Shown here: positions 47,161-64,000 of the stretch, one piece after another
How the letters are laid out: each line of letters opens with the position of its first letter
Numbering within the stretch: the first letter of the stretch is position 1
Assembly (NCBI GenBank): GCA_001664505.1
Contig: CP011806.1
Coordinates: 4,230,177 to 4,294,176, forward strand
Direction: 5' to 3'
From: Acidobacteria bacterium Mor1
Lineage (GTDB): Bacteria > Acidobacteriota > Polarisedimenticolia > Polarisedimenticolales > Polarisedimenticolaceae
Length of the DNA stretch: 64,000 bases
The notes under the pieces: generated by a model
The model's database searches: none
What the model was told of the DNA's origin: nothing
Seen by the model: the letters and a program-made list of their open reading frames with translations, nothing else
Translations under genes and position numbers: made by a program

Positions 47161-47320
47161 GCACAGAGCTCCATCGATGCCGCGGACGTTAACTCCGCGT
47201 AAGGTGCCAATCCCCGCAAACCCGCACCGGGAGCGGCTCTTCCCAACTTCTTACCGCGCTGTCGCAGACCTGTCACAGACCGCCGATAGCTTGCCTCGCG
47301 TCTGATCCAGCCGCGAGCTT

Positions 47321-47371: not shown

Positions 47372-50300
47372 GTGAGAAAGCTGTTCACGCTCGCCATCTT
47401 CCTGATGGCGGCCCTGGTCCTCGCCGGTACCCCGGCCATGGCCCAGCAGTGCTCGGGCGGCGTGTGCCAAACCTGCGCTGGCGGCGACAATGATGGGGGG
47501 GCCTGTACCTCCAACGCCGATTGCCCCAACGGCGGTGTCTGCGATCCGGGTGGCCCGGGTCAGTGCGCCGTCGCCGGTCAACCTGCCAACACCTTCCGCG
47601 TCACAGCGGACATCGCCACCAGCACGCTCTGGACGGCGGACACCGAATACATCCTGACCAAACCGATCTTCGTGCTGGACGGCGCGACGCTCTCGATCGA
47701 ACCCGGTACCGTGATCCGCGGTGAGGGGGAATCGGCGCTGGGCAACAACGACCCCGGCGCGCTGATCGGAGCTCGAGGCTCCAAGATCCGCATGGCCGGT
47801 ACCCGCGGCGCCCCGATCGTCATGACCGACTGCGAGGACGACAACCTCGGCAGTAACCCGGGTACCCCGCCCTACGACACTGCCGCCAATGCACAGGGCC
47901 TGGAAGGCCGCTGGGGCGGCCTGATCCTGTTGGGCTACGGCTATGTCGGTGCCGGTACCGCCGGCGCCATCGACCCCACCAACACCGAGTTCATCGAGGG
48001 TCTCGAGGCGACGAGCAACGGTCTCTACGGCGGTTGCTCCGATTTCCTCTCGGCTCCCTTCGATCGCAACTGCGACGACGGCGACAGCGGTCTGATCAAC
48101 TACGTCTCGCTGCGCTACGGCGGTTTCAACCTGGCTGCGGCCAACGAGATCAACGGCCTGACCCTGGGTGGTGTCGGCCGTGAGACCGAGATCGACTACA
48201 TCGAGGTCTACCAGAACCAGGACGACGGCATCGAGTGGTTCGGTGGCGCCGCCAACGTCAAGCACGCGGTGGTGGTCGCCGTGGGTGACGACACCTTCGA
48301 CTACGACCAGGGTTGGCGCGGTAAGGGCCAGTTCTGGTTCGCTATCCAGGGTGAGGCCGGCAACGAGCAGGGCGACAAGGGTGGTGAATGGGATGGTGGC
48401 GACGGTCCCGACGCCTCGCTTCCGTTCTCGCTGCCGACCATCGCCAACATGACCCAGATCGGCCTGGGCGCCGCCGGCGTCTGTCTGATCGGCGGTGAGA
48501 CCTGCTTCGAAGATCTGGACTGCCCGCTCCCGGGAGACACCTGCGAGCAGTGGGCCGCCCAGAACGACAACACCGGCCTGCACATTCGCGACGCCGCCGG
48601 CGGCCGCGTGCTGAACTCGTTCATGGGTGACTTCGGCGGTGCGGTGGCCTGCATCGAAGGGCAGCCAGGCTCCGTCGGAACGCCGGCGGACAACTGGGAC
48701 GACCCCTACGTGGCCAACGGCGTCGAGTTCGTCGAGTTCGAGCTGGGCACCAACGAGCTGGATCTCGATCAGAACACCTTCTTCTGCTACGAGCCGGGAC
48801 AGGCGCTGCCCGACGGCAGCGGCACCGGCGCCCAGTTCAACTGCGGCGGTGGCGATCACTTCGCCCCGGCCGACTTCTACAGCAAGAACGACTACATCGC
48901 CTGCGGTTCGACGCTGCCGATCGAGGTCCTGGACCGCGAGCCGGCGACGCTGAGCAACCCGGGCCGCGTGCTCGAGATCGACCCGCGTCCGACGCCGGGA
49001 AGCCCGCTGCTGACCAGCGGCGTGTTCTCGCTACCGAACGACGGTTTCTTCGAGCCGGCTCCCTACCGCGGCGCCTTCGCCGCGGAAGGCAACTGGGCCA
49101 ACGGCTGGTCCACCGCTTCGCGGTTGGGCACCGTGACCTTCTCCGAGTGCTCGGGCGGCGTTTGCCGCACCTGCGCCGGTGGCGACAACGACGGCGCTGC
49201 CTGCACCTCCGACGGCGACTGCCCCAACGGCGGCGTATGCGATCCCGGCGATGTCGACTTCTGCGAGGTCGACGGCGACGGCGATGCCGATCCGCAGCCC
49301 AACGGCACCTTCCGCGTGACCTCCAACATCTCGGTCTCGACGACCTGGGCCGCGGATACCACCTACATCCTGACCAAGCCGATCTTCGTGGAGAACGGTG
49401 CGACCCTGACCATCGAGCCCGGCACCGTGATTCGCGGTGAAGGGGAGTCGGCGTTGGGCAACAACGATCCGGGCGCGCTGATCGCTGCTCGCGGCGGCGT
49501 GATCGACGCGGCCGGTACCGAGGCCGCTCCGATCGTGTTCACCGACTGCTCCGACGACAACGTCCAGGGCAACAACAACCCGACGGCGCCCTACGACACG
49601 GTGCAGAACGCCCGCACGCTGGAAGGCCGCTGGGGTGGCCTGATCCTGCTGGGCTACGGCTACGTCGGTGCCGGCACCGCCGGCGCGGTGGACCCGACCA
49701 ACACCGAGTTCATCGAGGGCCTCGAAGCCACCAGCAACGGACTCTACGGTGGCTGCGACGACTTCCTCTCCGGTCCCTTCGGCCGCAACTGCGACGACGG
49801 GAACTCCGGTACGCTCAACTACGTCTCGCTGCGCTACGGTGGGTTCAACCTCGCCGCGGCCAACGAGATCAACGGTTTGACCCTCGGTGGTGTCGGCCGC
49901 GAGACCGACATCGACTACATCGAGGTCTACCAGAACCAGGACGACGGCATCGAATGGTTCGGTGGCGCCGCCAACGTCCGCCACGCCATCGTCATCGGCG
50001 TCGGCGACGACTCCTTCGACTACGACCAGGGTTGGCGCGGAAACGGTCAGTTCTGGCTGCAGCTCCAGGGCGAAGCCGGCAACGAACAGTCCGACAAGGG
50101 CGGTGAGTGGGACGGCGGCGACGGCCCCGACGCCTCGCTTCCCTTCGCGCTTCCGACCATCGCCAACATGACGGCGGTCGGACTGGGCGGCGGCGGTGTC
50201 TGCCTCATCGGCGGCGAAGCCTGCTTCGTCGACACCGACTGCCCGATCCCCGGCGATACCTGCAGCGAGTGGGCCGCCCGCTCGGACAACACCGGCCTGC

Positions 50301-51223
50301 ACATCCGCGACGCAGCGGGCGGCCAGGTGCTCAACTCGATCATGGCCGACTTCGGTGGCGCCGTGGCGTGCATCGAGGGCCAGCCCGGTTCCGCCGGAAC
50401 CCCTGCCGACAACTGGGACGATCCCTACAACGGCGGCAACGGATCCGGCAACACCGACATCTACCTGCCTCAGGGCTTCGCTCTCAACGAGCTCGATCTG
50501 CGGGATAACGAGTTCTACTGCTTCGGCGGTGGTTCGGACCTTCCCGACGGATCGGGCACCGGCGCCGCATTCAACTGCGGTGGCGGTGATCACTACTTCC
50601 CGGCGGACTTCTACACGGCCCGGGGCAACAGCTACAACGCCTGCGGCGATCCGCTGCCGTTCACCGCGCTCGATCGCGACGCTCCGACGCTGAGCAACCC
50701 CGGTGCGGTCAACAGCTTCGATCCCCGCCTCGCCGAGGAGCCGACCGAAGCCACCTCCTGTCCGACGATCGATGCGCCTAGCGTCGGCGGGTTCTTCCAG
50801 AGCGCTCCCTACAAGGGCGCGATGAGTTTCGGCAGCAACTGGGGCCTCTGCTGGTCCAACGCCGGTTCGCTCGGGTTGTTCCCGACCTGTGACGAGAGCA
50901 CCGGAAGCGGTTCTGAGCCGAACGAGGTCGGCAACTCGTTGATCTTCGTCAGCAAGACCGATTTCGTCTGGGCCGGCGCCGCGTGCAACACCGCCGGGTA
51001 CGACGCCCTGCGCTCCAACGACGCCTCCGACTTCTCGTCCGCTCAGGGAGTGAGCTCCGACGAGTGCGGGGACGATGACAGCAGCGCTTCCGACGCCCAG
51101 ACTCCGGCCGCCGGCAGCGCCTTCTTCTACCTGGTACGGGGAACCAACGCCTGCGGCGACGGCTCCCTGGGGCAGAGCAACGAAACGTGCGGAGAACGCA
51201 CGGGTCCGGCCAGCTGCCTGTAG
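47372..51223 (+). CDS. Large secreted protein of two ~566-residue repeats
   Basis: 1283 residues from GTG 47372. A signal peptide (to AMAQ) is followed by two copies of the same unit, starting at Cys27 and Cys593. Each opens with a Cys-rich header (CSGGVCxTCAGGDNDG, DCPNGGVCDPG) and continues with a beta-helix-like region containing LTKPIFV, IEPGTVIRGEGESALGNNDP, GRWGGLILLGYGYVGAG, YIEVYQNQDDGIEWFGGAAN and DNTGLHIRDAAGG. The copies are mostly identical, so the duplication is recent or maintained. The last ~95 residues are the shared C-terminal domain (FFYLVRGTNACGDGSLGQ, ending SCL). Probably an abundant outer-surface protein; ligand unknown. It precedes a TonB-dependent receptor and TonB module. 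Confidence 0.9.
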   Translation: MRKLFTLAIFLMAALVLAGTPAMAQQCSGGVCQTCAGGDNDGGACTSNADCPNGGVCDPGGPGQCAVAGQPANTFRVTADIATSTLWTADTEYILTKPIFVLDGATLSIEPGTVIRGEGESALGNNDPGALIGARGSKIRMAGTRGAPIVMTDCEDDNLGSNPGTPPYDTAANAQGLEGRWGGLILLGYGYVGAGTAGAIDPTNTEFIEGLEATSNGLYGGCSDFLSAPFDRNCDDGDSGLINYVSLRYGGFNLAAANEINGLTLGGVGRETEIDYIEVYQNQDDGIEWFGGAANVKHAVVVAVGDDTFDYDQGWRGKGQFWFAIQGEAGNEQGDKGGEWDGGDGPDASLPFSLPTIANMTQIGLGAAGVCLIGGETCFEDLDCPLPGDTCEQWAAQNDNTGLHIRDAAGGRVLNSFMGDFGGAVACIEGQPGSVGTPADNWDDPYVANGVEFVEFELGTNELDLDQNTFFCYEPGQALPDGSGTGAQFNCGGGDHFAPADFYSKNDYIACGSTLPIEVLDREPATLSNPGRVLEIDPRPTPGSPLLTSGVFSLPNDGFFEPAPYRGAFAAEGNWANGWSTASRLGTVTFSECSGGVCRTCAGGDNDGAACTSDGDCPNGGVCDPGDVDFCEVDGDGDADPQPNGTFRVTSNISVSTTWAADTTYILTKPIFVENGATLTIEPGTVIRGEGESALGNNDPGALIAARGGVIDAAGTEAAPIVFTDCSDDNVQGNNNPTAPYDTVQNARTLEGRWGGLILLGYGYVGAGTAGAVDPTNTEFIEGLEATSNGLYGGCDDFLSGPFGRNCDDGNSGTLNYVSLRYGGFNLAAANEINGLTLGGVGRETDIDYIEVYQNQDDGIEWFGGAANVRHAIVIGVGDDSFDYDQGWRGNGQFWLQLQGEAGNEQSDKGGEWDGGDGPDASLPFALPTIANMTAVGLGGGGVCLIGGEACFVDTDCPIPGDTCSEWAARSDNTGLHIRDAAGGQVLNSIMADFGGAVACIEGQPGSAGTPADNWDDPYNGGNGSGNTDIYLPQGFALNELDLRDNEFYCFGGGSDLPDGSGTGAAFNCGGGDHYFPADFYTARGNSYNACGDPLPFTALDRDAPTLSNPGAVNSFDPRLAEEPTEATSCPTIDAPSVGGFFQSAPYKGAMSFGSNWGLCWSNAGSLGLFPTCDESTGSGSEPNEVGNSLIFVSKTDFVWAGAACNTAGYDALRSNDASDFSSAQGVSSDECGDDDSSASDAQTPAAGSAFFYLVRGTNACGDGSLGQSNETCGERTGPASCL

Positions 51224-51234
51224 TTCGATTCGAT

Positions 51235-51268
51235 ATCCCGGGGGCTCTTTTGGGCCCCCGGGATTTTT
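51235..51268 (+). terminator. Strong intrinsic terminator after the duplicated surface protein gene
   Basis: Perfect 11-bp stem (51235-51245 with 51254-51264, 8-base loop) running into TTTTT. It starts 12 bases after the stop and ends only about 25 bases before the next gene's ATG, so it probably sets a high:low expression ratio between the surface protein and the downstream genes rather than a full stop. Confidence 0.9.
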
Positions 51269-51293
51269 CTCGTTTTCGGAGAGAGGTTTGATC

Positions 51294-52487
51294 ATGCCGT
51301 TCGGACGTGTGTGGAAAGTGTCTTTCGTCGCGGTTCTCCTGCTGGTCGGCTCAGGGGTTGCAGCTGTCGCCGACGTCGCTCCCAGGGAAGAGGCAGCTCG
51401 CGACTATCTGGACTACGGCTTCCAGTTCGCTTCGGCACTTAGCGTCGATCCGAAGGACATGACCCGGGCCCAGGAATCGGTCGTGCGCGAACTGATCGAG
51501 GTTGGGGAACTCGAGCGTGCCGCCGGAATGGCCGAGCGCATCGAGGGTTGGCGCCGTGGCGTGGCTCTCGCCGATCTCGCGGCGGAGTACGCCAAACAGG
51601 GCGACCTGACCCGGGCGAGGCGCCTGGTCGATGCCGCAGATCGGTTTCAGCGCGGCATGACCGGATGGTACGGTCCGCGTATTCGCGCGCACATCGCCGA
51701 AGCGTTGGCGATGATCGGCGAACAGGATCGGGCCACACGGATTTCCGGGGATCTGGCGTCGTCGGATCGCTCCCAGTATCTGGGCCGTTCCGCGGCTGCC
51801 GCGGCTGTAGCCATGGCCGTCAACGGAGACTTCGAGGGCGCGCTCGGGAGGCTCGACTCCCAGGAGAGCAAGACGTACGAGGATGCCTGGTACCGCACCG
51901 GCGGGTACATCGAGATTTCCAGGCAGAAACCGCTGAGCCGCCAACAGCGCGTGGAAGCGCTGGATGCCGCCTGGCAGTCTGCGCTGGTCGTCCCCGGCTG
52001 GCGGGCGATCGAGGCCTTTTCGGTCATCGGCGACGAGTACGCCCGGATCGGCGAGAAGGACAAGGCCCGCGAGGCACTGGCCGACGTCGAAGAGAAGCTC
52101 GGCCGCATGGCGGCCGATCACGTGGCGAAAGCGCCGCTTCTGGCCAAGACCGGCATCAGTTTCGCGCGGATCGGAGATCGCGATCACGCCCGCGAGTTGA
52201 TCGAGCGGGCCGAGGCGGTTGCGCGCGGTGAGCGGATCTCGGTCATCGAACGCCCGAAGTTCATGGCCATGGCCGCCATGGCTTATCTGATCAACGAAGA
52301 CGATGAACAAGCGACGCGCCTGTTCAACGAAGCTCTCGATCAGGCCGCGAGTCTCGTGAATGCGAGGCCGCGTGCCCTGGCGGTCGTCGAGATTTGTCGG
52401 GCGATGTCGCGACACGGCTACCCGGTAAATGACATCACGCGTCACAAACTCGACACGCTTTACACGGGCTTAAAGTCACCCTGGTAG
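51294..52487 (+). CDS. Exported helical-repeat (TPR-like) protein
   Basis: 397 residues from ATG 51294, with GAGAGG seven bases upstream. Signal peptide, then a run of ~35-residue helical pairs (LADLAAEYAKQGDLTRARRL, IAEALAMIGEQDRATRI, IGDEYARIGEKDKAREAL, FARIGDRDHARELIERAE), i.e. TPR-like solenoid with no catalytic motif. The position between the surface protein and the TonB-dependent receptor suggests a periplasmic scaffold in the same pathway. Start 51294 rejects the frame extension into the terminator. Confidence 0.83.
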   Translation: MPFGRVWKVSFVAVLLLVGSGVAAVADVAPREEAARDYLDYGFQFASALSVDPKDMTRAQESVVRELIEVGELERAAGMAERIEGWRRGVALADLAAEYAKQGDLTRARRLVDAADRFQRGMTGWYGPRIRAHIAEALAMIGEQDRATRISGDLASSDRSQYLGRSAAAAAVAMAVNGDFEGALGRLDSQESKTYEDAWYRTGGYIEISRQKPLSRQQRVEALDAAWQSALVVPGWRAIEAFSVIGDEYARIGEKDKAREALADVEEKLGRMAADHVAKAPLLAKTGISFARIGDRDHARELIERAEAVARGERISVIERPKFMAMAAMAYLINEDDEQATRLFNEALDQAASLVNARPRALAVVEICRAMSRHGYPVNDITRHKLDTLYTGLKSPW

Positions 52488-52640
52488 TTTCAGTTCGTAG
52501 GGTCCTGGATGGAGGTTCGCGTTCGGGCTAGGAACGCGACCCGGGGCTGAGACGCGCAAGCCGAATCCGCGATGACGTGGTTCCTGAAAGCGGACAAAAG
52601 CGTGCTCAACCATCCCGCGACCAGGTAGAGGAGCAGCTAC

Positions 52641-55600
52641 ATGGGCGCCATCGCGCCGGCGATTCGTAGCCGTGCACTTCAGTGCGGTCGACGAATCGCC
52701 ATCAGCGTTTTCTCGGTGATCGTTGTTCTTGCGAGCGTCGGCGTGGCCGCCGCCCAGGAGGGCGGCATCCGCGGCACCATCGTCGAGGAGGGTTTCGACA
52801 CCCCGCTCGACGGCGTGCGCATCACCGTGGCTGGATCTCCGCTGAGCAAGACGACCGATCAGGACGGCAGTTTCCTCATCGATGGTTTGACCCCGGGGAA
52901 GTACACCCTGATTCTGGCCAAGCCGGGGTACGAGCGGGCGGTTCTGACCGATGTGGTCGTACTGCCGGGCAGGTTGGCCAATGCCGATGCGACGCTCGGT
53001 CTCGAGATCATCGACATGGCTCCGATGGTCGTCGTCGGGCAGGCACTCCTGGGTAACTCCGAACTCGGTTTGCTCTCGATTCGCCAGGAATCGCTCCAGG
53101 TTCAGGACGCGATCTCATCGGAACTGATCAGCAAGGCCGGCGTCGGCGATGCCGCCGGTGCTCTGAAGCTGGTGGTCGGCGCGTCGGTGGTCGACGGCAA
53201 GTACGCAACGGTCCGGGGGCTGAGCGACCGCTATACCGGTACGACCCTGAACGGCGTCCGGGTGCCGAGTTCGGATCCTCGCCGCCGGGCGGCCCAGATC
53301 GACGTCTTTCCCACGGCCACCATCGAAAACGTGACCGTGACCAAGACCTTCGCCCCCGATCTGCAAGGTGACTTCACCGGCGGTGGTGTGGACATCCAGA
53401 CCAAATCGGTGCCCGACGCCTTTACGGTGAGCTTCTCGTCGTCGGTCGGCGACGACTCGCTGGCCACCGAGAACCCGGCCTTCGTCACCTACATCGGCGG
53501 GGGGACACGATCGAGCGGCCGCGGGCTTCCGGCGGTGCTCGATCGCCGCCTGGGCGCGGTCTTCCCCACCCCGGGCGCCCCGACCCGCGACGGCAGCAAC
53601 CTGGAACTCAACAGCGTGATCGACGAGCAGAGCAACGCGTTGCCGCCGGTACTCGGTACGGCCCGCAGGGCTCCCAACAAGAACAACGGCTATTCGCTGA
53701 CGATCGGGCACCGGATGGACTTCGGCCGCGAGGGCCGCATCGGTGTGATCGCCGCCCGCACCGAAAAGGACTCGGCGCAGTTCTTCGGCAACGCCGTCAA
53801 TAACCAGGTCGACTACAACCCCACCTCGGTCGTGCCGACCTTCCGTGACGACAATCGCGGAACCCTGAGCCGCCTGACGGGAACCCTGGGGACCCTGGTG
53901 GTGCAGCCGAACATCAACCACGAAGTCGCGTTGCGCTACATCCGCAACGAGTCGATCTCCGACGAGGCACGGTTCCAGCTGTCCTCGGACAACATCGACC
54001 TGCAGACCAACCTCGAAGAGAACCAGGCGCTGCGTTTCTCCGAGCGCACCGTCGAGTCGCTGCAGCTCGCGGGGGAACACAAGATTCCGCTCGGGGTCGG
54101 TGAAGGTGTGTTCAAGTCCGTCGATATCGACTACACCCTGGCCCGGAACTCCACCGAGCAGGATGAGCCCGACCAGCGACTGTTCCGCAACCAGTTCAAC
54201 GAGATCAACGTGGGCGACATCTACCTGAAGATCTCCCGGCGCCCGGCCAACATCGGTGGCCCCTCCGATGCGATCCGCAGGATTTTTCGCAACGTGGTCG
54301 AGGACAGCGACATCGCTGCGCTGAACGTGTCCGTTCCCTTCGAACAGTGGTCTCAGGAAAAGGGCAAGATCAAGTTCGGTGGTTACTTCGAGAGCGCCGA
54401 CCGGGACTTCCGGCAGGATTCGTTTTCGTATCTCCCGGTCAACGACTACCTCGGTTCTTCGCAGCGCAATACGGCTGCCCAGGCCAACCAGGACCGCGCG
54501 GTCCAGTTCCGCAACTCGAACACCGACCTGTTCGACGGCCGTTTCCCCAACGACCCCGCAATCGCACCGGGGCTGTGGACCGACAACTTCCTCGACCCTG
54601 CGTTCGTCGGTTTTGCCGGCAACCGTTGCACCCTGGACGACCCCGACGGGATCGATCCGACGATCAACCTCGATTGCTCGGCCATCGACCAGCTGGTCTG
54701 GACCATCGGCCCGATCGGCGCCAACCTCGACGTCGACTACGCAGGGGAGCAGGAGATCGAAGCGGCCTACCTGATGGCCGAGCTCCCGGTGACCCGCCGG
54801 CTGGGCTTCACCTTCGGCGCCCGCCAGGAATCGACCCTGATGTCGACGGTGCCGGAATCGCGCTCGCTGGTGCAGATCATCGTGACCCAGCCCGACGGCT
54901 CCCGGAACTTCGAGAACGTGAACGAGGCCGACCCCCGGGCCGCCGGCCGCGTCGAAGACGACGCCCTGCTGCCCTCGATCGGCGCGACCTACGAGATCGT
55001 CCCGGGCGAGATGAAGCTCCGCGCGTCCTGGAACCGGACCATTGCCCGCCCGACCTTCCGTGAGCTGGCCCCGGTGGCGACCATCGAGTTCCTCGACGGG
55101 GACGAGTTCACCGGAAACCCGGAGCTGGGTCTTTCGGATATCGAGAACGCCGATCTGCGCTGGGAGTGGTTTCCCTCTCCCGGCCGGGTGTTGGCCTTCA
55201 GCCTGTTCCAGAAGGAGATCACCGACCCGATCGAGCTGATCAGCTTCACTGTCGGTGGTCGAGATCTGGTGCAGCCGATCAACTACCCGTCGGGCCGCGT
55301 CGAGGGATGGGAATTCGAGTCCCGTTCGGATCTCGGTCTGTTCAGCGAGTGGCTGGACAACTTCTCCGTGGGCCTGAACTTCACCTCACTCGATTCCGAA
55401 GTGGACGTGCCCCTGGACGAGCAGGAGTCCCTGGGCGACTTCGGGATCCGGCAGGAGACCCGGCGGCTTCAGGGTCAGCCCGAGTACCTGTTCAACGCCA
55501 ACGTGACCTACGACAACAACCGCTCGGGAACGACGGTCTCGCTGTTCTACAACGTGATCGGCGAGACCCTGCTCACCGGTGCGGCTCGGGGTCAGGAGGG

Positions 55601-55856
55601 CGCCAGGCCCAACGTCTTCAATCTCTCGTTCAAGCGCTTCGATCTCAACTTTCGACAGCGCTTCAAGAAGCACTTTTCGTTTTCGCTCAAGCTGAAGAAC
55701 GTCACCCGGGAGCAGCAGCTCTCGGTCTTCCGCACCCCGCAAGGGGTTGACGTGCCCTTCGAGGGGTGGACTCAGACGTCGGACGGCGCGCAGTTCCTGC
55801 GCACCCAGCGACCGACGGCCCGTGAGTTCAGCCTCGGTGTCGGTTTCAGTTGGTAG
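52641..55856 (+). CDS. TonB-dependent outer-membrane receptor
   Basis: 1071 residues; GAGGAG is seven bases before the ATG. Signal peptide to about 38, a carboxypeptidase-regulatory-like Ig domain (40-120; GIRGTIVEEGFDTPLDGVRI, DQDGSFLIDGLTPGKYTL), a plug domain (KYATVRGLSDRYTGTTLNGV, FTGGGVDIQTKS) and a 22-strand-type barrel ending in ...TAREFSLGVGFSW with the terminal aromatic residue needed for BAM insertion. The large size and N-terminal regulatory domain resemble receptors for oligomeric or proteinaceous ligands. Substrate unknown. It precedes by 26 bases the DUF3450 gene that starts the TonB module. A stem at 52518-52538 lies in the 153-base leader. Confidence 0.95.
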   Translation: MGAIAPAIRSRALQCGRRIAISVFSVIVVLASVGVAAAQEGGIRGTIVEEGFDTPLDGVRITVAGSPLSKTTDQDGSFLIDGLTPGKYTLILAKPGYERAVLTDVVVLPGRLANADATLGLEIIDMAPMVVVGQALLGNSELGLLSIRQESLQVQDAISSELISKAGVGDAAGALKLVVGASVVDGKYATVRGLSDRYTGTTLNGVRVPSSDPRRRAAQIDVFPTATIENVTVTKTFAPDLQGDFTGGGVDIQTKSVPDAFTVSFSSSVGDDSLATENPAFVTYIGGGTRSSGRGLPAVLDRRLGAVFPTPGAPTRDGSNLELNSVIDEQSNALPPVLGTARRAPNKNNGYSLTIGHRMDFGREGRIGVIAARTEKDSAQFFGNAVNNQVDYNPTSVVPTFRDDNRGTLSRLTGTLGTLVVQPNINHEVALRYIRNESISDEARFQLSSDNIDLQTNLEENQALRFSERTVESLQLAGEHKIPLGVGEGVFKSVDIDYTLARNSTEQDEPDQRLFRNQFNEINVGDIYLKISRRPANIGGPSDAIRRIFRNVVEDSDIAALNVSVPFEQWSQEKGKIKFGGYFESADRDFRQDSFSYLPVNDYLGSSQRNTAAQANQDRAVQFRNSNTDLFDGRFPNDPAIAPGLWTDNFLDPAFVGFAGNRCTLDDPDGIDPTINLDCSAIDQLVWTIGPIGANLDVDYAGEQEIEAAYLMAELPVTRRLGFTFGARQESTLMSTVPESRSLVQIIVTQPDGSRNFENVNEADPRAAGRVEDDALLPSIGATYEIVPGEMKLRASWNRTIARPTFRELAPVATIEFLDGDEFTGNPELGLSDIENADLRWEWFPSPGRVLAFSLFQKEITDPIELISFTVGGRDLVQPINYPSGRVEGWEFESRSDLGLFSEWLDNFSVGLNFTSLDSEVDVPLDEQESLGDFGIRQETRRLQGQPEYLFNANVTYDNNRSGTTVSLFYNVIGETLLTGAARGQEGARPNVFNLSFKRFDLNFRQRFKKHFSFSLKLKNVTREQQLSVFRTPQGVDVPFEGWTQTSDGAQFLRTQRPTAREFSLGVGFSW

Positions 55857-55882
55857 GTCCGCGGCCAACGTAGGAGTTCGGA

Positions 55883-56656
55883 ATGGTCAAGTTCGTCGTC
55901 AAGGTAGGCCTGTGGCTCGCGGTTGCGGGTGTCCTGGCCGGAGGTTCGGCCCTGGCCGAGAGCTCCCCCTTGGAAAACACCCGCGATCTCGTCACCAAAT
56001 GGGTCGAGGCGCAGCAATTGATCTCCAAGGAGAAGGAGGACTGGCGCCTGGGCAAGGACGTGCTCGAGCAGCGCATCTCGCTGGTCGACGGCGAGATCTC
56101 GTCGCTCGAAGGCCGCATCCAGGAGTCCAGGGAGGGCCTGTGGGAGACGCGCAAGCAGAAGCGCGATCTCGAGCTCAAGACCGGCCAGCTCAAGGCGGCG
56201 ACCTCGTCCCTCGAAGTCTCGATCGCGTCGATCGAGCGCAAGACGAAGGCGCTGTTCAAGCGTCTGCCGTCTCCGGTGAGAGACCAGGTCGAGCGTCTGG
56301 AGCGCCAGATTCCGGCGAATCCGGCGAGCACCGAGCTGAGCCTCGCGGTTCGCTACCAGAACGTCCTGGGAATCCTCAACCAGGTCAACAAGTTCAACAA
56401 CGACATCTACGTCGCGTCGGAATTGCGCGACCTGGACAACGGCAGTTCTGCCGAGGTCAGCGTGATCTACGTCGGCCTGGGGCAGGCCTTCTTCGCCAAC
56501 TCGACGGGCACCATCGCGGGCACCGGCCGGCCGGGTGACGACGGTTGGGTCTGGACCGAGAACAACGATCTGGCGCCCGATGTGCTTCTGACGCTGCAGA
56601 TCCTGAAAGATGAAGCCCAGCCGGCCTTCGTGCCGCTGCCGGTGACGATCCAATGA
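55883..56656 (+). CDS. DUF3450 periplasmic coiled-coil protein
   Basis: 257 residues: signal peptide, then a long coiled coil (about 45-130; LEQRISLVDGEISSLEGRI, LKTGQLKAATSSLEVSIASI), and a C-terminal conserved region (LAVRYQNVLGILNQVNKFNN, YVGLGQAFFANSTGTIAGT) diagnostic of DUF3450. In gammaproteobacterial TonB2/TonB3 clusters this protein is encoded right before TtpC, as here. Its exact role is unknown; the coiled coil suggests a periplasmic tie between TonB complex and peptidoglycan or receptor. Overlaps the next gene by 4 bases. Confidence 0.92.
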   Translation: MVKFVVKVGLWLAVAGVLAGGSALAESSPLENTRDLVTKWVEAQQLISKEKEDWRLGKDVLEQRISLVDGEISSLEGRIQESREGLWETRKQKRDLELKTGQLKAATSSLEVSIASIERKTKALFKRLPSPVRDQVERLERQIPANPASTELSLAVRYQNVLGILNQVNKFNNDIYVASELRDLDNGSSAEVSVIYVGLGQAFFANSTGTIAGTGRPGDDGWVWTENNDLAPDVLLTLQILKDEAQPAFVPLPVTIQ

Positions 56657-58215
56657 CGGGGGGTAGGCGGATCATGAACTTCGAGACCCGTATGCCGGCC
56701 CTGGCGCTGGTTCTGGTTCTTTGCGTCTCCGGCCTGGCGGCCCAGGATGCGACGCTGACGGACACCGCGGACAAGGCCAGGCAAGATCTGGACAAAGCGA
56801 CCCGGGCGCTGGCCGATCTGCGCAAGCAGATCGCCGCCGAGAAGATCCCGATGAACCGCCGTCTCGGAGAACGCGAGAACGAGCTGACCCGGGTGCGCAA
56901 GCAGTTCGAGGAGGTCGGCGCCGAGCTCGACCTGCAGACCCTCGATCTGACCAACCTGACCAAGGAACTCGAGGGCCGGCAGCAATCCAAGCGCTACCTG
57001 GAGAACCTGCTGGGTGAGTACCTGCGAAACGTCGAATCCCAGGTGCACATCTCCGAGCTGCAGCGCTACGAAACGACGTTGGAGAAGGCCCGGGATGCCT
57101 TCGACGATATTGAGCTGACTCCGTCCGAGGTCTTCCAGGCACAGACCGACGCCATCGAGATGTCGATCGACCGGCTGGAGGGTCTGCTGGGAGGTGAGTC
57201 CTTCGACGGCACCGCCGTGGGCGAAGGCGGCCTGGTCAAGGAGGTCACCTTCGGCATCCTCGGCCCCGTCGCGGTCTTCCGGGCCAAGGATGGCTCCGAC
57301 GCCGGCCTGGCGATCCAGGAAAACTCCCTGCAGCCCAAGATGCAGTTGCTGAAGGACCCGGCCAACGGCGAGGCGATCGCCTCGCTGATTCAGTCCGGTT
57401 CCGGCATCCTGCCCTTCGACCCCAGCCTGGGCAACGCGATCACCATGGAGACCATCGACGAGGGCCTGCTGGCGGAGTTCAAGAAGGGGGGCGTGGTCAT
57501 GTACCCGATCGTCCTTCTCGCCGCGTCGGCGCTACTGGTCGCGCTGATCAAGCTGATTCAGATGATGCTGGTGCGCACCCCTTCCAACCGGCGCATCGAC
57601 ACCCTGCTCGAAGCGGTCAAGGCGCAGGACTACACCAAGGCCGAGCGGGTCGTCGGCGATGTTTCCGGGCCTACCGGAGAGATGCTCAAGGCCGGCGTCG
57701 AACACATCCGCGAGCCCAAGGAGCTGGTCGAGGAGGTCATGTACGAGCAGACCCTCGAGACCCGGCTGCGGCTCAACAGCTTCCTGCCCTTCGTCCAGGT
57801 GGCCGCCGCGGCAGCACCGCTGCTCGGCCTGCTCGGTACCGTGACCGGCATCATCTCCACCTTCCAGATGATCACCGTGTTCGGCACCGGCGATGCAAAG
57901 ACCCTCTCCGGAGGTATCTCCGAGGCGTTGATCACCACCAAGTTCGGTCTGGTCGTCGCGATTCCGTCGCTGCTGCTCTACGCCTACCTCTCGCGCCGGG
58001 CGCGCCGGGTCATCGACGGCATGGAGAAAACCGCGGTTCGCTTCCTCAACCGCCTGCACATCGGTAGCGCCGGCATGCAGGGCGTGATGGCCGGTGGAGC
58101 CGGCGGTGCCCAGGCCGACGCGGCCGGGGCCGGGGGCGGTACGGTGCAGCATGGTGGGCCGCTGCCGGTCGGCGCCCAGGCGTCGATAGCCCAGGCCCAG
58201 GGCCCGGACCACTAG
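56653..58215 (+). CDS. TtpC-like MotA/TolQ/ExbB proton channel protein
   Basis: 520 residues. ATG 56653 overlaps the DUF3450 stop; ATG 56674 is a plausible alternative with an AGGCGG upstream and still keeps the signal peptide (MPALALVLVLCVSGLAAQ). A periplasmic N-terminal ~270 residues (coiled coil 35-125, then a globular part) is followed by three transmembrane helices of the MotA/TolQ/ExbB family ([59 protein letters not shown]). This long form is TtpC, the extra component of Vibrio-type TonB2 systems. It ends in a Gly/Ala-rich cytoplasmic tail. Confidence 0.93.
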   Translation: MTGGRRIMNFETRMPALALVLVLCVSGLAAQDATLTDTADKARQDLDKATRALADLRKQIAAEKIPMNRRLGERENELTRVRKQFEEVGAELDLQTLDLTNLTKELEGRQQSKRYLENLLGEYLRNVESQVHISELQRYETTLEKARDAFDDIELTPSEVFQAQTDAIEMSIDRLEGLLGGESFDGTAVGEGGLVKEVTFGILGPVAVFRAKDGSDAGLAIQENSLQPKMQLLKDPANGEAIASLIQSGSGILPFDPSLGNAITMETIDEGLLAEFKKGGVVMYPIVLLAASALLVALIKLIQMMLVRTPSNRRIDTLLEAVKAQDYTKAERVVGDVSGPTGEMLKAGVEHIREPKELVEEVMYEQTLETRLRLNSFLPFVQVAAAAAPLLGLLGTVTGIISTFQMITVFGTGDAKTLSGGISEALITTKFGLVVAIPSLLLYAYLSRRARRVIDGMEKTAVRFLNRLHIGSAGMQGVMAGGAGGAQADAAGAGGGTVQHGGPLPVGAQASIAQAQGPDH

Positions 58216-58218
58216 GCC

Positions 58219-58860
58219 ATGGGAGTGGTGCTCGAACAGATCCAGACTCTGGCCCAGCGTGCGGTCGAGATCTGGTTGCAGGGCGGATGGGCGATGATCG
58301 CCCTGGCGGTGAACAGCTTCATCCTGTTCGTCGTGGGGCTGAACATCTGGTTCGGCCTGCGGGCCAGCGGCTTCAAGTCGATGCCCGAAAAGAAGTGGCG
58401 CCCCTGGATCACCGACGAGACCAAGCGCAAGGGTGCCGTCGGCCGGCTGATCCGCTACGTGATGGATGCCGACAATCTCAAGGACATGACGGTTCGCTTC
58501 AGCGAGCTGCGTTCCAGCGAGATCGCTCCGTTCGTGCGCGAGCTTCGCTTCATGAAGCGGGCGGTCGGCACGGCGCCGCTGCTCGGCCTGCTCGGCACGG
58601 TGACCGGCATGTTGACGACCTTCAAGGGGTTGGCCGGCGGCTCCGGCGGCGATCAGACCATGGAGCAGATCGCGGCCGGTATTTCCGAGGCCTTGGTCAC
58701 GACCGAGACCGGGCTGGTCATCGCGCTGGTCGGCGTGTTCTTTCAGTACCGCCTCCAACGCCAGGCCGAAGCCTACGACGCGTTTCTTCAGCACCTGGAA
58801 TGTGCATGCGCTCAGCACGTCTACAAGCGTGACCAGGAAGCGATGCCCAAGGGAGCCTGA
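58219..58860 (+). CDS. exbB: ExbB-type proton channel subunit
   Basis: 213 residues, the short form. Three helices: [20 protein letters not shown], then [19 protein letters not shown] and [20 protein letters not shown]. The family's signature phrase GLLGTVTGM is intact. ExbB pentamers with ExbD convert the proton-motive force into movement of TonB. It lies three bases after the TtpC gene and two bases before exbD. Confidence 0.94.
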
Positions 58861-58862
58861 CC

Positions 58863-59270
58863 ATGAGTCGATTCCGATCGATGTTCGAGGGAGAAGACGA
58901 GGGCGAAGTGGTGAACATGTCACCGCTGATCGACTGCGTGTTCATCCTGCTGATCTTCTTCATCGTGACCACCACCTTCGTCGACGAGACCGGCATCGAG
59001 GTGCAGAAGCCTCAGGCCGCCTCCAGCGTGAACCTCGACAAGAACAGCATCCTGCTGGCGGTGACCGCCGACGGCAAGGTGGTCTACGGCGGTCGTGAAA
59101 TCGGTCTGACCGGAGTGCGGCCGTTGGTCAAACGCATGACCGCCAAGGAAGACCTGCCGGTGATCATCCAGGCGGACGATCAGGCGATGACCGGTCTGTT
59201 CGCCCGGGTGCTCGACGAGGCCAAGCTGGCCGGTGCAACCCAGGTCTCTCTGGCAACCAAGCGCAACTAG
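58863..59270 (+). CDS. exbD: ExbD-type proton channel subunit
   Basis: 135 residues. One transmembrane helix with the essential proton-carrying aspartate D24 in [17 protein letters not shown], then a periplasmic domain ([39 protein letters not shown]). Matches ExbD/TolR length. Part of the TonB-energising complex; 8 bases separate it from tonB. Confidence 0.95.
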
Positions 59271-59278
59271 AGGCTGCG

Positions 59279-59950
59279 ATGGACCAGAAGAAGAGCTTCA
59301 TCAAGCGTCTGTTCCAGCACACTTCTGCGGTGGTGCTGGCGCTGGTGGCGACCCTGCTGGTCTTCCTGGTGTTGCCCTTGATGCAGACCCTGGGAGATCT
59401 GGTCAAGGACACCACGGTGACCCGAGTCGACGCGACCACCCTCGAGCCTCCGCCGGAAGTGGAGATGGCCGAGGAGGAGCCCCCGGAGGAAGAGCCCGAG
59501 CCCGAACCGGAGCCGGAGTTCGAGCCCCAGGCTCAACCGCTGGACCTCGGTCAGTTGGAGTTGGCCCTCAACCCGGATGCGGGTGGTGGTGCCGGAAGTT
59601 TCGATGTCGCGAGCTTCCTCAAGGACGTGGTGGGAGATGCAGGCGGTTCGGTGGAGGACATCTTCTCCGCGGCCCAGCTGGACCAAACACCGCGGATCGT
59701 GTTCCAGCGTCAACCCGGCTATCCGCCCGACCTGATCAAGACGAAGCAGGAGGGAGTCGTCTACGTCGTGTTCCAGGTAGGAACCGACGGACGGGTCAGC
59801 AATCCCAAGGTGACCCAGTCGACCAACCCGCTGTTCGACAAGTTGGCCATGGACGCCGTGCGGCAGTGGCGCTTCGAACCCGGAACCCGTGGTGGCAAGA
59901 AGGTGCGCTTCAAGATGCGTATTCCGGTCACCTTCCAGTTGCCGAGCTAG
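59279..59950 (+). CDS. tonB: TonB energy-transduction protein
   Basis: 223 residues. N-terminal helix (AVVLALVATLLVFLVLPLM), an acidic proline linker (EEEPPEEEPEPEPEPEFEP; Glu-Pro rather than the usual Lys-Pro) and the TonB C-terminal domain (PGYPPDLIKTKQEGVVYVVF, MDAVRQWRFEPG). The linker is short, so it would span a thin periplasm or need DUF3450 or the TPR protein to extend reach. It should contact the TonB box of the receptor at 52641. Confidence 0.94.
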   Translation: MDQKKSFIKRLFQHTSAVVLALVATLLVFLVLPLMQTLGDLVKDTTVTRVDATTLEPPPEVEMAEEEPPEEEPEPEPEPEFEPQAQPLDLGQLELALNPDAGGGAGSFDVASFLKDVVGDAGGSVEDIFSAAQLDQTPRIVFQRQPGYPPDLIKTKQEGVVYVVFQVGTDGRVSNPKVTQSTNPLFDKLAMDAVRQWRFEPGTRGGKKVRFKMRIPVTFQLPS

Positions 59951-59988
59951 TTCGTCGCGGGCCGCCGGCCCGCAAGAGGATCTGAGTC

Positions 59989-61707
59989 ATGTTGAAGTCT
60001 TTTGCCGAACTGTCCCTCGCGCCGGCCATGTGCATTGCGCTCCTGTGGATGCCCGCCGCGACGGCCCAGGCCGCCGGAGCCGGCGATGTTGCGCCGATGG
60101 GTGCCGATCTCGCCGCGCCGGGAGCGGATTCCGCCGCGGAGGGCGGGGACGGCGAGAAGGCGACCGAGAAGGCCGAGCGCGAGGCGGACAAGGCCAAGAA
60201 GAAGGCTGAGCGCGAAGCCGAGCGCGCCAGGAAGAAGGCCGAGCGTGCTGCGCGACGGGCCAAGAAGGACGGCGTCACCAGCGAGGGTGAGCAGCTGACC
60301 CCCGAGGAGCTGTTGGAGCAGAACAAGCAGGCCCTCGATCTGGTGGGTAACGGTCTCAGCGAACCCACCGAGCGAAACAAGGCCGGTCTGGACCTCTGGT
60401 CGGACCCCAACTTCGCCCGGCAGTTCGACGAGCAGTTCAAGCGCCGGGCCGAGGTCGAGCCCGATGTCAGTGAGACCGAGCGCGAAACCCTGCGCACGGT
60501 GTTGGGCCTGATGCAGGACAACGATGAGACCGGTGAGCAGGCGAATCCGGCTGCGGCTGCCGAGCAGCTCGAGGCCGCCATCGACGCCGACCCCGCCGGC
60601 ACCAGCGCGCTGCTCGATTTCACCCTCGGTTCGATCTACGTGCAGCTCGACAAACAGGAAGAAGCCCTCGATTGCTACGAATCGGCCCTGGCCAAGTTCC
60701 CCAGCTTCATGCGGGCGCACCGCACCGTCGGCCTGGTCTACGTGCAGAACAACCGCTTCAAGGAGGCGGTCGGTCATCTGAGCCGGGTCATCGAGCTCGG
60801 TGGGGGAGACGGCCTGACCTACGGGCTGCTGGGCTACGGCTACCAGTCCGAGGGGCAGCACATCTCGGCCGAGTCCGCCTTCCGCCAGGCGTTGTTGTTC
60901 CAGCCCGGAACCCTGGACTGGAAGCAGGGCCTGGCCCAGGCCTTGCTCAAGCAGAACAAGTGGGAAGAAGCCATCGCTCTGTCCAACGAGCTGGTTTCCC
61001 AGTATCCCGATGCCGAGAAGTTCTGGTTGCTCCAGGCCAACGCCTTCATCGGCAACGAACAGCCGCTGATGGCCGCCCAGAATTTCGAGATCCTGCGCCG
61101 CATGGGCAAGGCGACTCCCGAGAGCCTGATGACCCTGGGCGATATCTACGTCAATCAGAGCATGTGGGATCTGGCGACCAACGCTTACCTGGCCTCGATC
61201 GAGCTCGATAGCAAGCAGCCGGTGGCCGCGCCGGTGCAGCGGGTCAACTGGCTGCAGCAGCGGGGCGCCATGGATCAGGCCAAGGAACTGCTCTACCGCA
61301 TCAAGGATGTCTACGCCGGCAGGCTCGAGGAGGAGCAGCACAAGGATCTGCTCAAGGTCGAGGCGCGGATCGCCGTGGCCGAGGGTGTCGGCGGCGAGAT
61401 GATCTCGGTACTCGAGGAGATCGTGGCGCTGGATCCGCTGGATGCCGAGACGCTGATGTTGCTCGGCCGGCACTACGCCACCGGGGAGCCGGAGAAGGCG
61501 ATGTTCTACTACGAGCGCGCCGAGAACATCGACGGCTACGAAGCGGACGCCAAGGTCCGCCGGGCGCAGCTCCTGGTCGGCCAATCCGAGTACTGCAAGG
61601 CCCGGGACCTGCTCAACCGGGCCCAGCAGGTCAAGCCTCGCGAAGACGTGGGCAAGTACCTGGAGCAGGTCGAGCGGGCCGCCAAGGCCCGGGGCTGCGG
61701 CGCCTAG
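59989..61707 (+). CDS. Exported TPR protein of the TonB module
   Basis: 572 residues. Signal peptide to about residue 25, a highly charged Lys/Glu/Arg/Ala helix (about 45-90), then about ten TPR units (FTLGSIYVQLDKQEEALDCY, HRTVGLVYVQNNRFKEAVGH, LLGRHYATGEPEKAMFYYER). TtpC-type TonB operons of gammaproteobacteria end in a similar TPR gene. Likely a periplasmic partner of TonB or of the receptor. It lies 38 bases after tonB, and a strong terminator follows it. Confidence 0.9.
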   Translation: MLKSFAELSLAPAMCIALLWMPAATAQAAGAGDVAPMGADLAAPGADSAAEGGDGEKATEKAEREADKAKKKAEREAERARKKAERAARRAKKDGVTSEGEQLTPEELLEQNKQALDLVGNGLSEPTERNKAGLDLWSDPNFARQFDEQFKRRAEVEPDVSETERETLRTVLGLMQDNDETGEQANPAAAAEQLEAAIDADPAGTSALLDFTLGSIYVQLDKQEEALDCYESALAKFPSFMRAHRTVGLVYVQNNRFKEAVGHLSRVIELGGGDGLTYGLLGYGYQSEGQHISAESAFRQALLFQPGTLDWKQGLAQALLKQNKWEEAIALSNELVSQYPDAEKFWLLQANAFIGNEQPLMAAQNFEILRRMGKATPESLMTLGDIYVNQSMWDLATNAYLASIELDSKQPVAAPVQRVNWLQQRGAMDQAKELLYRIKDVYAGRLEEEQHKDLLKVEARIAVAEGVGGEMISVLEEIVALDPLDAETLMLLGRHYATGEPEKAMFYYERAENIDGYEADAKVRRAQLLVGQSEYCKARDLLNRAQQVKPREDVGKYLEQVERAAKARGCGA

Positions 61708-61736
61708 GCCGAAAACCCCGATCGAGAAACGGTCAG

Positions 61737-61770
61737 AAACGGCAGCGCAGGGGTGCGCTGCCGTTTTTTT
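61737..61770 (+). terminator. Intrinsic terminator of the TonB operon
   Basis: Stem ACGGCAGCGCA (61739-61749) with TGCGCTGCCGT (61754-61764), loop GGGG, followed by seven T. It lies 30 bases after the TPR stop and defines the end of the TonB module transcript. Confidence 0.95.
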
Positions 61771-61847: not shown

Positions 61848-63230
61848 ATGCGCTTTGCGATCATTGCGATGGTCTGGACGATGGCGTTCGGGGTGTGGGC
61901 ATCTCCATGCGCCGTCGACGCCGATTGCGACGATGGGCTGGCCTGCACGGGGCTCGAGACCTGCGGCTACGACGGTGTTTGCCGGGAGGGCATCGGGCTC
62001 TGCGGGCCGCCGACCCAGGCGCTCGAGACGCGGATCTGGGCCAGCTCTTCCTACAGTCCCGGCTACCTGCCTCGGAAGGCCATCGACGGCGATCCCGGTG
62101 TGACCTCGAGCTGGTGTTCCGCCGACGGCGACCCCGATCCGGCGCTCCACGTCGAGTGGGTCTACCCGGCCCGGATCTCCGAGATCCGGATCCATAACGC
62201 CTGGCTGACCCACGATTTCCAAACAGGCCGTTTCGAGCTGCGCAACGCCGCCGGCGGTCTGCTCTACGACTCCGGCATCGTCTCGTTGACCGCCGGGGCG
62301 ATCACGCACCCGGTGATCCCCGCGGTCGGCGGGGTGCGCCGACTATCCTTCATCGGAGAAACCTGGCGTAGCGACGACCCGTGCATCAGCGAGATCGAGG
62401 TCAGCGCCGACGCGCCCTGCCTCGTCGATGCCGACTGCGCCTTTGCCTCCCCCTGTATCGCCGTCGGGATCTGCGGCACCGACAAGCAGTGCACCGCCAC
62501 CGCACCCCGCTGCCGCAATCTGGCCCTGGACCACGAGGCGGTCGCTGCCAGCAGCGAGTACTCCGCCGGCTACCGGCCGGAGCTGGCCGCCGACGGCAAC
62601 CCGGCGACCTCCAGCAGTTGGTGTTCGGCCGCCGCCGACCAGGCGCCGGAGATCGCGCTGACCCTGCCCAACGCCCACGCGATCAGTCTGGTGCGCCTGA
62701 GCAACGGTTGGCTCCTGAACAACTTCGAGAGCATCGACCTGCGCTTCGAGGACGAACAGGGCATCTCGATCCTCGAGGAGCAGGACATCCCGGTCGACGA
62801 GGGGCAGCGCACCGTTGCCCTGGAGCATCAGGTGCCCCGCGCCCACAAGGTGGTGCTCCAAGGGCGAAGCTTCGACGAGGGGCCCTGCATCGGCGAGCTG
62901 GAGCTCTATGGCGAGTACTGCTTTCTCGATATCGCGGGCCACAGCCCCATGAGCTGGCGTTTTCGTCCGGCGACCCCCGAGCCGGACTACGAGATGCGCT
63001 ACGGACTGCTGTCGGAGATGCGGGCCGACGCGGGCTTTCAGCGGGCGGGGTGCCTCGGGCGCTACCAGGGGGGCACCGCCGAGACGCTGCTGCCGGACCC
63101 GCCGGTGGGGGATGGTTTCTATCTGATCGCCCGGGGCTTCAACGTCTGCGTCGGCGAGCAATTCGGCCTGTCGCGGGTGTCGCCGGACCCGCGAGCGGTG
63201 ATGGAAAAAGAACCGGCGTGCACCCCGTGA
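61848..63230 (+). CDS. Secreted protein with two discoidin-like domains
   Basis: 460 residues. Signal peptide MRFAIIAMVWTMAFGVWA, then twice the same pair of modules: a short Cys motif (DADCDDGLACTGLETCG; DADCAFASPCIAVGICG) and an F5/8 type C (discoidin)-like beta-sandwich. The latter is marked by ASSSYSPGYLPRKAIDGDP and ASSEYSAGYRPELAADGNP at the start and a C-terminal Cys-I-x-E phrase. The last ~95 residues are the C-terminal domain shared by five proteins here (GFYLIARGFNVCVGEQFG, ending EPACTP). Discoidin domains usually bind glycans. No enzymatic part. Confidence 0.88.
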   Translation: MRFAIIAMVWTMAFGVWASPCAVDADCDDGLACTGLETCGYDGVCREGIGLCGPPTQALETRIWASSSYSPGYLPRKAIDGDPGVTSSWCSADGDPDPALHVEWVYPARISEIRIHNAWLTHDFQTGRFELRNAAGGLLYDSGIVSLTAGAITHPVIPAVGGVRRLSFIGETWRSDDPCISEIEVSADAPCLVDADCAFASPCIAVGICGTDKQCTATAPRCRNLALDHEAVAASSEYSAGYRPELAADGNPATSSSWCSAAADQAPEIALTLPNAHAISLVRLSNGWLLNNFESIDLRFEDEQGISILEEQDIPVDEGQRTVALEHQVPRAHKVVLQGRSFDEGPCIGELELYGEYCFLDIAGHSPMSWRFRPATPEPDYEMRYGLLSEMRADAGFQRAGCLGRYQGGTAETLLPDPPVGDGFYLIARGFNVCVGEQFGLSRVSPDPRAVMEKEPACTP

Positions 63231-63279: not shown

Positions 63280-64000
63280 TTACATGCAGGGGCGGGTGGT
63301 CACCCTCGGGTGGCCGTTCTGGATCCGTCCCAGCGGGCTCTCGCTGCCGGCGACCTCGCCGGTCACCAGGTAGAACACCGCTTCGCCGGCCGCCGGCGTG
63401 AAGCTGTCCGCCAGCGAGTTGCTGCTCAGGCCGCAGAACGACGCTGCGTCGGGGTGTTGAGCCGGGTCCTGGGTGTAGTCGGCGCCGGCATGCAGTGCCG
63501 CCAGCTCGCCACGGTAGACGTTGTAGCTGGTGAAATTGCTGTCGGCCTGCCAGTTCAGGGTGTCGGTGCCGCCGGCGGTGAAGTGCAGCAGGCCGTCGTC
63601 GACATCGCAGAGATCGCCGGTCAGGTCGAAGTCATCGTCGTTCTGGTTGGAGTTGGCGATGGCCGGGCAGTTGTCGCAGGCGTCGCCGAAGCCGTCGCCG
63701 TCGCTATCGGTCTGAAGCGGGTTGTTGACCGTCGGGCAGTTGTCGTTGAGGTCGGTGCTGCCGTCGGTATCACTCTGGGCCACTCGCGGGTTCGAGCCGA
63801 TCTCCGCTTCACGCAGGTTGATCAGGCCGTCGCCGTCGGTGTCGTCGTAGGGCGGCAGGCCGTCGACGTTGAGGATCTCGAAGGTGTAGGTGCCGAAGGG
63901 GGGCACCACGCCGTCGACCTCGACCGGATGGCCGGTCAGCAGGTAGATCGGCATGTGCGGGTTGGCCGGGGCGTTGCCCGATTCGTAGCTGGCGCCGGTG
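63280..64000 (-). CDS. Secreted TSP3 protein (5' partial)
   Basis: About 240 residues visible; the frame is open to the window end, so the ATG at 63954 is internal. It begins with a beta-rich segment ending GTYTFEILNVDGLPPY, then about three TSP3 calcium repeats (DTDGDGLINLREAEIGSNP, DGSTDLNDNCPTVNN, DSDGDGFGDACDNCP). It ends with the shared C-terminal domain (SYNVYRGELAALHAG, VFYLVTGEVAGSESPLGR, ending PCM). The layout matches the protein at 1-2049. Probably exported and Ca2+-binding. Confidence 0.85.
   Translation of the reverse strand, partial: TGASYESGNAPANPHMPIYLLTGHPVEVDGVVPPFGTYTFEILNVDGLPPYDDTDGDGLINLREAEIGSNPRVAQSDTDGSTDLNDNCPTVNNPLQTDSDGDGFGDACDNCPAIANSNQNDDDFDLTGDLCDVDDGLLHFTAGGTDTLNWQADSNFTSYNVYRGELAALHAGADYTQDPAQHPDAASFCGLSSNSLADSFTPAAGEAVFYLVTGEVAGSESPLGRIQNGHPRVTTRPCM

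Follow-up and report, generated by a model that had tools for sequence, protein, structure and literature searches.

A beta-helix surface protein, its TonB-dependent receptor and a TtpC-type Ton system form a putative Pho-controlled phosphate-scavenging operon in Acidobacteria bacterium Mor1

We analyzed a 64,000-nucleotide window of the Acidobacteria bacterium Mor1 genome (contig CP011806.1, positions 4,230,177 to 4,294,176), in which nine open reading frames (ORFs), all on the forward strand between 47372 and 61707, encode a 1283-residue surface protein (abbreviated SURF), a TPR-like exported protein, a TonB-dependent receptor (TBDT) and six Ton system proteins (Table 1). All nine genes listed in an earlier note made from the sequence alone are present, and their domains were confirmed with Pfam and NCBIfam, from which the domain assignments of the nine proteins were made. 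We kept the limits drawn in that note because strong terminators follow both SURF and the last TPR gene. A sigma-70 promoter scan found none. A gene encoding an F5/8-type-C protein (61848-63230) was placed outside the set, as it lies downstream of the closing terminator and has no homologue in related loci.

Table 1. Features of the SURF locus (window coordinates)
Feature	Position	Strand	Basis or remarks
Putative PhoB box CTGTCGCAGACCTGTCAC	47259..47276	+	two direct half-sites 11 bp apart, ~96 bp before the SURF start
Surface protein SURF, 1283 aa	47372..51223	+	Sec signal peptide lacking a lipobox; predicted beta-helix repeat in two copies, then the C-terminal module
SURF half 1	47450..49147	+	self-alignment
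SURF half 2	49148..50875	+	self-alignment
SURF C-terminal module	50864..51217	+	reaches the stop codon; recurs at ~118 further sites of this genome
Terminator-like hairpin between SURF and downstream genes	51235..51264	+	strong, intrinsic-terminator-like, T-tail
TPR-like exported protein, 397 aa, signal peptide	51294..52487	+	weak TPR matches; related cassettes have a homologue in this position
TonB-dependent receptor (TBDT)	52641..55856	+	CarboxypepD_reg N-terminal domain, TonB-box-like stretch at ~residues 126-133, plug, barrel
DUF3450 protein (TtpB)	55883..56656	+	domain search; sole DUF3450 in the genome
TtpC	56653..58215	+	DUF3450-like N-terminus and MotA/TolQ/ExbB domain
ExbB	58219..58860	+	domain search
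ExbD	58863..59270	+	domain search
TonB	59279..59950	+	TonB_C domain match
TPR protein, TtpD position	59989..61707	+	TPR domain matches
Strong terminator closing the set, ahead of the F5/8-type-C gene	61735..61768	+	terminator scan

TonB, ExbB, ExbD, TtpC, the DUF3450 protein TtpB and the TPR protein TtpD stand together in one operon, as in TonB2 and TonB3 systems, and the assignment of the last six genes to this set holds against the feature list for Vibrio vulnificus (PMC6957404). The receptor gene directly precedes the DUF3450 gene and thus heads the Ton genes as in TonB3. The DUF3450 and TPR parts had been taken to lack a defined role, but TtpB2 and TtpD2 are essential for TonB2 iron transport in V. 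vulnificus (PMC6957404). The description of these Vibrio systems includes no beta-helix surface protein attached to them; TonB2 serves siderophores, and the receptor-led TonB3 operon showed no activity in iron transport (PMC6957404). Five of 11 cassettes (L074, L076, L088, L089, L119) lack a separate exbB; a divergent ExbD comes directly after TtpC, which may itself act as the stator.

The receptor does have an N-terminal domain, though not the Ig domain proposed before: it is CarboxypepD_reg, a carboxypeptidase-regulatory-like domain common in TBDTs, and the plug was likewise confirmed. A model of the receptor (predicted local distance difference test score, pLDDT, of 80) matches FecA with a VIA Z of 40.6, and HasR and BtuB are also among its fold matches. 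The TonB-box-like stretch reads MAPMVVVG in the window receptor, against a consensus of LEEVVVTA. The window genome encodes 24 plug-bearing receptors in 6 Mb, with eight ExbD and 16 TonB_C matches. Since the genome offers other Ton components, the linked set does not have to be its general Ton system and may be dedicated.

Self-alignment divides SURF into two halves, which at 72% identity over 578 positions are alike rather than near-identical, as they had been described. Each half is predicted to form a right-handed beta-helix: the AlphaFold2 model, made for half 1 from a 62-sequence alignment, has this fold (pLDDT 81, predicted template modelling score 0.88). VIA-align matched it to tailspikes, alginate epimerases, NosD, pectate lyases and polygalacturonases (Z 17-21), and Foldseek returned general beta-helix proteins only, with E above 0.001; these model-based matches speak to fold and not to function. 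The SURF family has no Pfam or NCBIfam entry and only weak Beta_helix Pfam matches, and a search of PDB sequences with a SURF profile found no match. A SusD-type partner was not indicated either, SURF being a predicted beta-helix with no SusD match in Pfam. Relatives carry one, two or three tandem repeats (47450-50875 in the window; L049, L052, L097, L100, L109, L128, L143). Halves are 74-82% alike within one protein versus about 50% between relatives in the class, and less beyond it, implying that the repeats were repeatedly duplicated or homogenised. Contigs of metagenome-assembled genomes (MAGs) of the class break inside the SURF gene.

The C-terminal module of SURF, ...FFYLVRGxNxCGxGSLGxxSxGxxRTGAxCP-stop, has 119 copies in the 6-Mb genome. 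Further copies in the window lie at 63295-63621 (-), 12446-12799 (-), 1738-2028 (+) and, by eye, at the end of ORF 61848-63230 (+). In nearly all copies inspected, the module stands at the C-terminus or within a few residues of it. It has no Pfam or NCBIfam name and resembles a sorting or anchoring module used across the lineage, with a role comparable to that of the C-terminal domain of the type IX secretion system (T9SS). Judged by its recurrence at about 119 genomic places, the export route of SURF would be shared, not private.

We further investigated how firmly SURF and the receptor are linked, using about 20 kb around SURF relatives from genomes of the same phylum, the best 80 loci from a genome collection, and annotated plasmids. 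Loci from outside the class were picked by SURF similarity, and many are MAG contigs. A homologous receptor lies beside SURF on the same strand in 22/23 assessable loci of the phylum, 61/70 from other genomes and 9/9 from plasmids. The 61 include one receptor on the opposite strand, and the count becomes 62 with L104, which falls outside the distance rule and was added by eye. Taken together, about 93 of the 102 loci that could be assessed, spread over many phyla, have a homologous receptor beside the SURF relative. Given only 24 plug receptors in the 6-Mb window genome, chance adjacency would be on the order of 1%, and by this estimate the linkage is not due to chance. The survey called for in the earlier note thus found the receptor to be the usual neighbour of SURF homologues.

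The same order of all nine genes recurs in the window's class, where some cassettes have no separate exbB. Summarised by component, the order is SURF-TPR-TBDT-Ton in this class, TBDT-SURF-Ton in Luteolibacter and SURF-TBDT-Ton in an Akkermansia-labelled MAG (both Verrucomicrobiota), SURF-TBDT-Ton in Alteromonas and Ton-SURF-TBDT in Pseudoalteromonas. Because membership is kept while gene order is shuffled, these arrangements constitute strong comparative evidence of shared function. We give hardly any credence to SURF and the receptor being mere neighbours with separate functions: a terminator-like hairpin does stand between SURF and the receptor side here, and elpS and cc0171, a comparable pair in Caulobacter, are regulated differently (PMC2996285), but adjacency is kept across many phyla through these rearrangements. 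DUF3450 occurs in 9/41 class genomes, namely the eight that have SURF and one (7% contamination) without SURF nearby. One locus (L091 in genome G303) carries TtpC-ExbB-ExbD-TonB and DUF3450 with no SURF or receptor nearby and resembles a contaminant contig. In two alphaproteobacterial plasmids (L172, L174), the SURF-TBDT pair is followed by type II secretion system (T2SS) genes in place of the Ton genes; the SURF-TBDT-T2SS order in Sphingomonas and Indioceanicola plasmids was confirmed with hidden Markov models.

A pair of this kind is known from Caulobacter crescentus, in which ElpS (Cc0170) is made under phosphate starvation, anchored at the surface, released through the T2SS and encoded beside the TBDT gene cc0171 and gspC-N (Le Blastier et al. 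2010, PMC2996285). ElpS is surface-exposed even without the T2SS, on which its release depends (PMC2996285). Homologues of elpS and cc0171 were noted to co-occur; Shewanella and Bacteroides have relatives, and Sphingomonas alaskensis keeps the gene order (PMC2996285). The window pair resembles ElpS/Cc0171 in joining a surface protein to an adjacent TBDT and, by prediction, in a phosphate-starvation context, and SURF relatives in Sphingomonas and Indioceanicola share the T2SS arrangement. ElpS, however, is a lipoprotein (about 50 kDa) coupled to a T2SS, whereas the window SURF is duplicated, carries the lineage's C-terminal module and is accompanied by a TPR-like protein and a TtpC-type Ton system of its own. 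No lipobox was found in its N-terminus (VRKLFTLAIFLMAALVLAGTPAMAQQC), and for this reason we do not file SURF as an ElpS, only as a relative that would work alike. A secretin search of the genome gave no GspD match above the curated cut-off, with weaker secretin matches occurring.

In Flavobacterium johnsoniae, FI and FII (PUSIII and PUSIV) stand beside TBDTs, are related to the Caulobacter protein and belong to the genes most strongly induced by phosphate starvation (Lidbury et al. 2020, PMC8115612). FI is the most abundant exoprotein (18.7% of the exoproteome), and FII has a pectin-lyase fold and lies in the phoBR cluster (PMC8115612). They thus share with SURF the fold class and the neighbouring receptor, but are lipoproteins from a different phylum for which no dedicated Ton genes are reported (PMC8115612). 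The surface protein, which had been presented together with the TPR-like protein as the new part, thus forms with its receptor a pair that has precedents. The dedicated pathway of SURF, receptor and Ton proteins itself gained support from the receptor conserved beside SURF and from the other Ton components in the genome. A search of open-licence literature found no paper joining a SURF-type protein, the receptor and a TtpC/DUF3450 Ton set.

We scanned the promoters of 103 SURF/TBDT units for two CTGTCAT half-sites. Of these, 21 fell below p 0.05; 60 column-permuted matrices gave 8.3 on average and at most 16, and six other spacings gave 5-9. The window box CTGTCGCAGACCTGTCAC ranks first among the 103 promoters (p=0.003 versus windows of the same locus) and is the only site scoring above 12.5 in the 64-kb window. 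A genome-wide pattern search returned a single perfect match, the window site, which is the source of the pattern and so not independent; one-mismatch sites equalled the control.

Pho genes also recur around SURF relatives. Alteromonas carries a phoB-phoR-pstS-oxygenase-SURF-TBDT-DUF3450-TtpC-ExbB-ExbD cluster. One genome of the class has a divergent pstS beside SURF, with phoU, phoB and phoR on the same contig, and in a second one phoB, phoR and phoU lie on the upstream side, phoU closest to SURF. PhoU was found in 13/120 loci (1.93 Mb) versus 0.46 expected from its density in class genomes only. NCBIfam PhoB models match 5/134 nearest-flank ORFs, with values up to 4e-94, while PstS-type PBP_like_2 shows a weak contrast (4 near versus 2 far). 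Altogether, this phosphate-starvation context, absent from the earlier note, suggests that the set is switched on for phosphorus scavenging.

The same regulation bears on what the system may carry. Iron or siderophore uptake of the Vibrio TonB2 type, which the six shared Ton proteins, the need for TtpB2 and TtpD2 in siderophore uptake (PMC6957404) and a siderophore receptor and fhuF near one Pseudoalteromonas locus might recommend, is very improbable in view of the Pho box, the Pho-gene enrichment and the iron-inactive, receptor-led TonB3 operon (PMC6957404). We rejected this reading, as regulation and neighbours do not support it. The same capture and import machine could also serve a polysaccharide or other polymer, in which case its phosphate groups, or a response to starvation in general, would account for the Pho control. 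The beta-helix fold is common to pectate lyases, polygalacturonases, alginate epimerases and tailspikes, SURF has its weak Beta_helix matches, and a plant-polymer link was suggested for FI and FII (PMC8115612). Such a ligand is nevertheless unlikely: a common fold gives no function, and while Pho genes stood out in the flanks of SURF loci, no carbohydrate-enzyme family did.

Directly 3' of the SURF stop codon, a strong GC-rich hairpin is found in eight related cassettes as well (L049, L058, L074, L075, L076, L088, L090, L096), its place kept and its sequence different in every genome. The window hairpin is predicted to be a partial terminator or an mRNA-stabilising structure. This recurrent placement suggests that SURF is made in excess over the machinery genes, which would fit a secreted capture protein more than a one-to-one lid. 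Hemophores are a point of comparison for a secreted capture protein made in excess.

An excess of SURF would also suit a cargo. Oar, with ExbB/ExbD/TonB, exports PopC in Myxococcus xanthus (PMC6434023), a system that likewise combines a TBDT, a Ton system and a large extracellular protein, and the receptor and Ton system could export or display SURF in the same manner. The window receptor too has a CarboxypepD_reg N-terminal domain, and SURF comes first in the operon, as a cargo would. PopC, however, is a protease without signal peptide, whereas SURF has a Sec signal. Its relatives beside the same receptor carry export signals of their own, a T9SS sorting domain in 21/71 and a lipobox in at least 25/71, and ElpS depends on the T2SS for release and reaches the surface without it (PMC2996285). 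With the C-terminal module at about 118 other places in the genome versus 24 plug receptors, a private exporter would be needless. For these reasons we favour capture over export and regard the receptor as a rather improbable exporter of SURF. Of the two roles left side by side in the earlier note, capture of a ligand for the receptor is thus favoured, and handling of SURF by the receptor is the less likely.

We therefore propose, with a probability of roughly 60%, that the operon is a Pho-controlled phosphate-scavenging system in which SURF captures, the receptor imports and a dedicated TtpC-type Ton system drives. From the sequence, this proposal draws on the genes and the way their linkage is conserved, on the Pho box and the Pho genes around relatives, and on predicted folds and terminators. 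Under low phosphate, PhoB would bind the predicted box at 47259-47276 and turn the set on. SURF, made in excess owing to the hairpin between its gene and the machinery genes, would leave via Sec and then reach the cell surface, with its own C-terminal module as the probable means. There it would bind an extracellular phosphorus ligand, for which organic phosphate, a polymer and mineral-bound phosphate are candidates, and pass it to the adjacent receptor. Powered by its own ExbB/ExbD/TonB with TtpC, TtpB (DUF3450) and TtpD (TPR), the receptor would import the ligand to the periplasm, where the Pst/phosphatase system would take over. Expression, surface location here, ligand binding, transport direction and exclusivity of the Ton proteins are what we infer in this scheme.

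Several points weigh against it. In Caulobacter, ElpS was still produced after deletion of cc0171, a gene reported to be constitutively expressed, and no change in intracellular phosphate was detected (PMC2996285). The proposed match of SURF to ElpS and FI rests on synteny, fold class and regulation. The Pho matrix was our own, based on the known consensus, and PhoB/PhoR matches made without the NCBIfam models may represent other two-component proteins. In the window genome, the pst/ppk/phoU/phoB/phoR region is normal but 1.6 Mb away.

Capture by an extracellular protein for a TBDT has parallels in HasA/HasR/HasB, which pair a capture protein and a TBDT with a dedicated TonB, and in BtuB-BtuG, which pairs a capture protein with a TBDT. 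These would work alike if the phosphate-capture reading holds, although the folds and ligands of their capture proteins are unrelated to SURF. More tentatively, and at somewhat less than even odds, these beta-helix proteins may represent an unnamed general class of surface capture partners of TBDTs. As counterparts of SusD, BtuG and hemophores, they would be produced in excess, exported by whichever route the host has and used for phosphorus across many phyla, with the TtpC/DUF3450 Ton system often as a private motor. Orphan TonB3-type operons would then gain a substrate class.

The operon joins three loose ends: ElpS-type proteins, abundant under phosphate starvation; receptor-led TonB3-type systems and their substrate; and the DUF3450 and TPR parts of Ton systems and their mechanism. 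The ElpS and TonB3 puzzles become testable, as the same set is present in cultured bacteria of the genera Luteolibacter (L. pohnpeiensis), Alteromonas (A. macleodii with pBGP9) and Pseudoalteromonas (strain CF6-2). If the proposal is true, many phyla take up surface-captured phosphorus by Ton-driven import of a ligand too large for porins, a route that would come on top of phosphatases and Pst.

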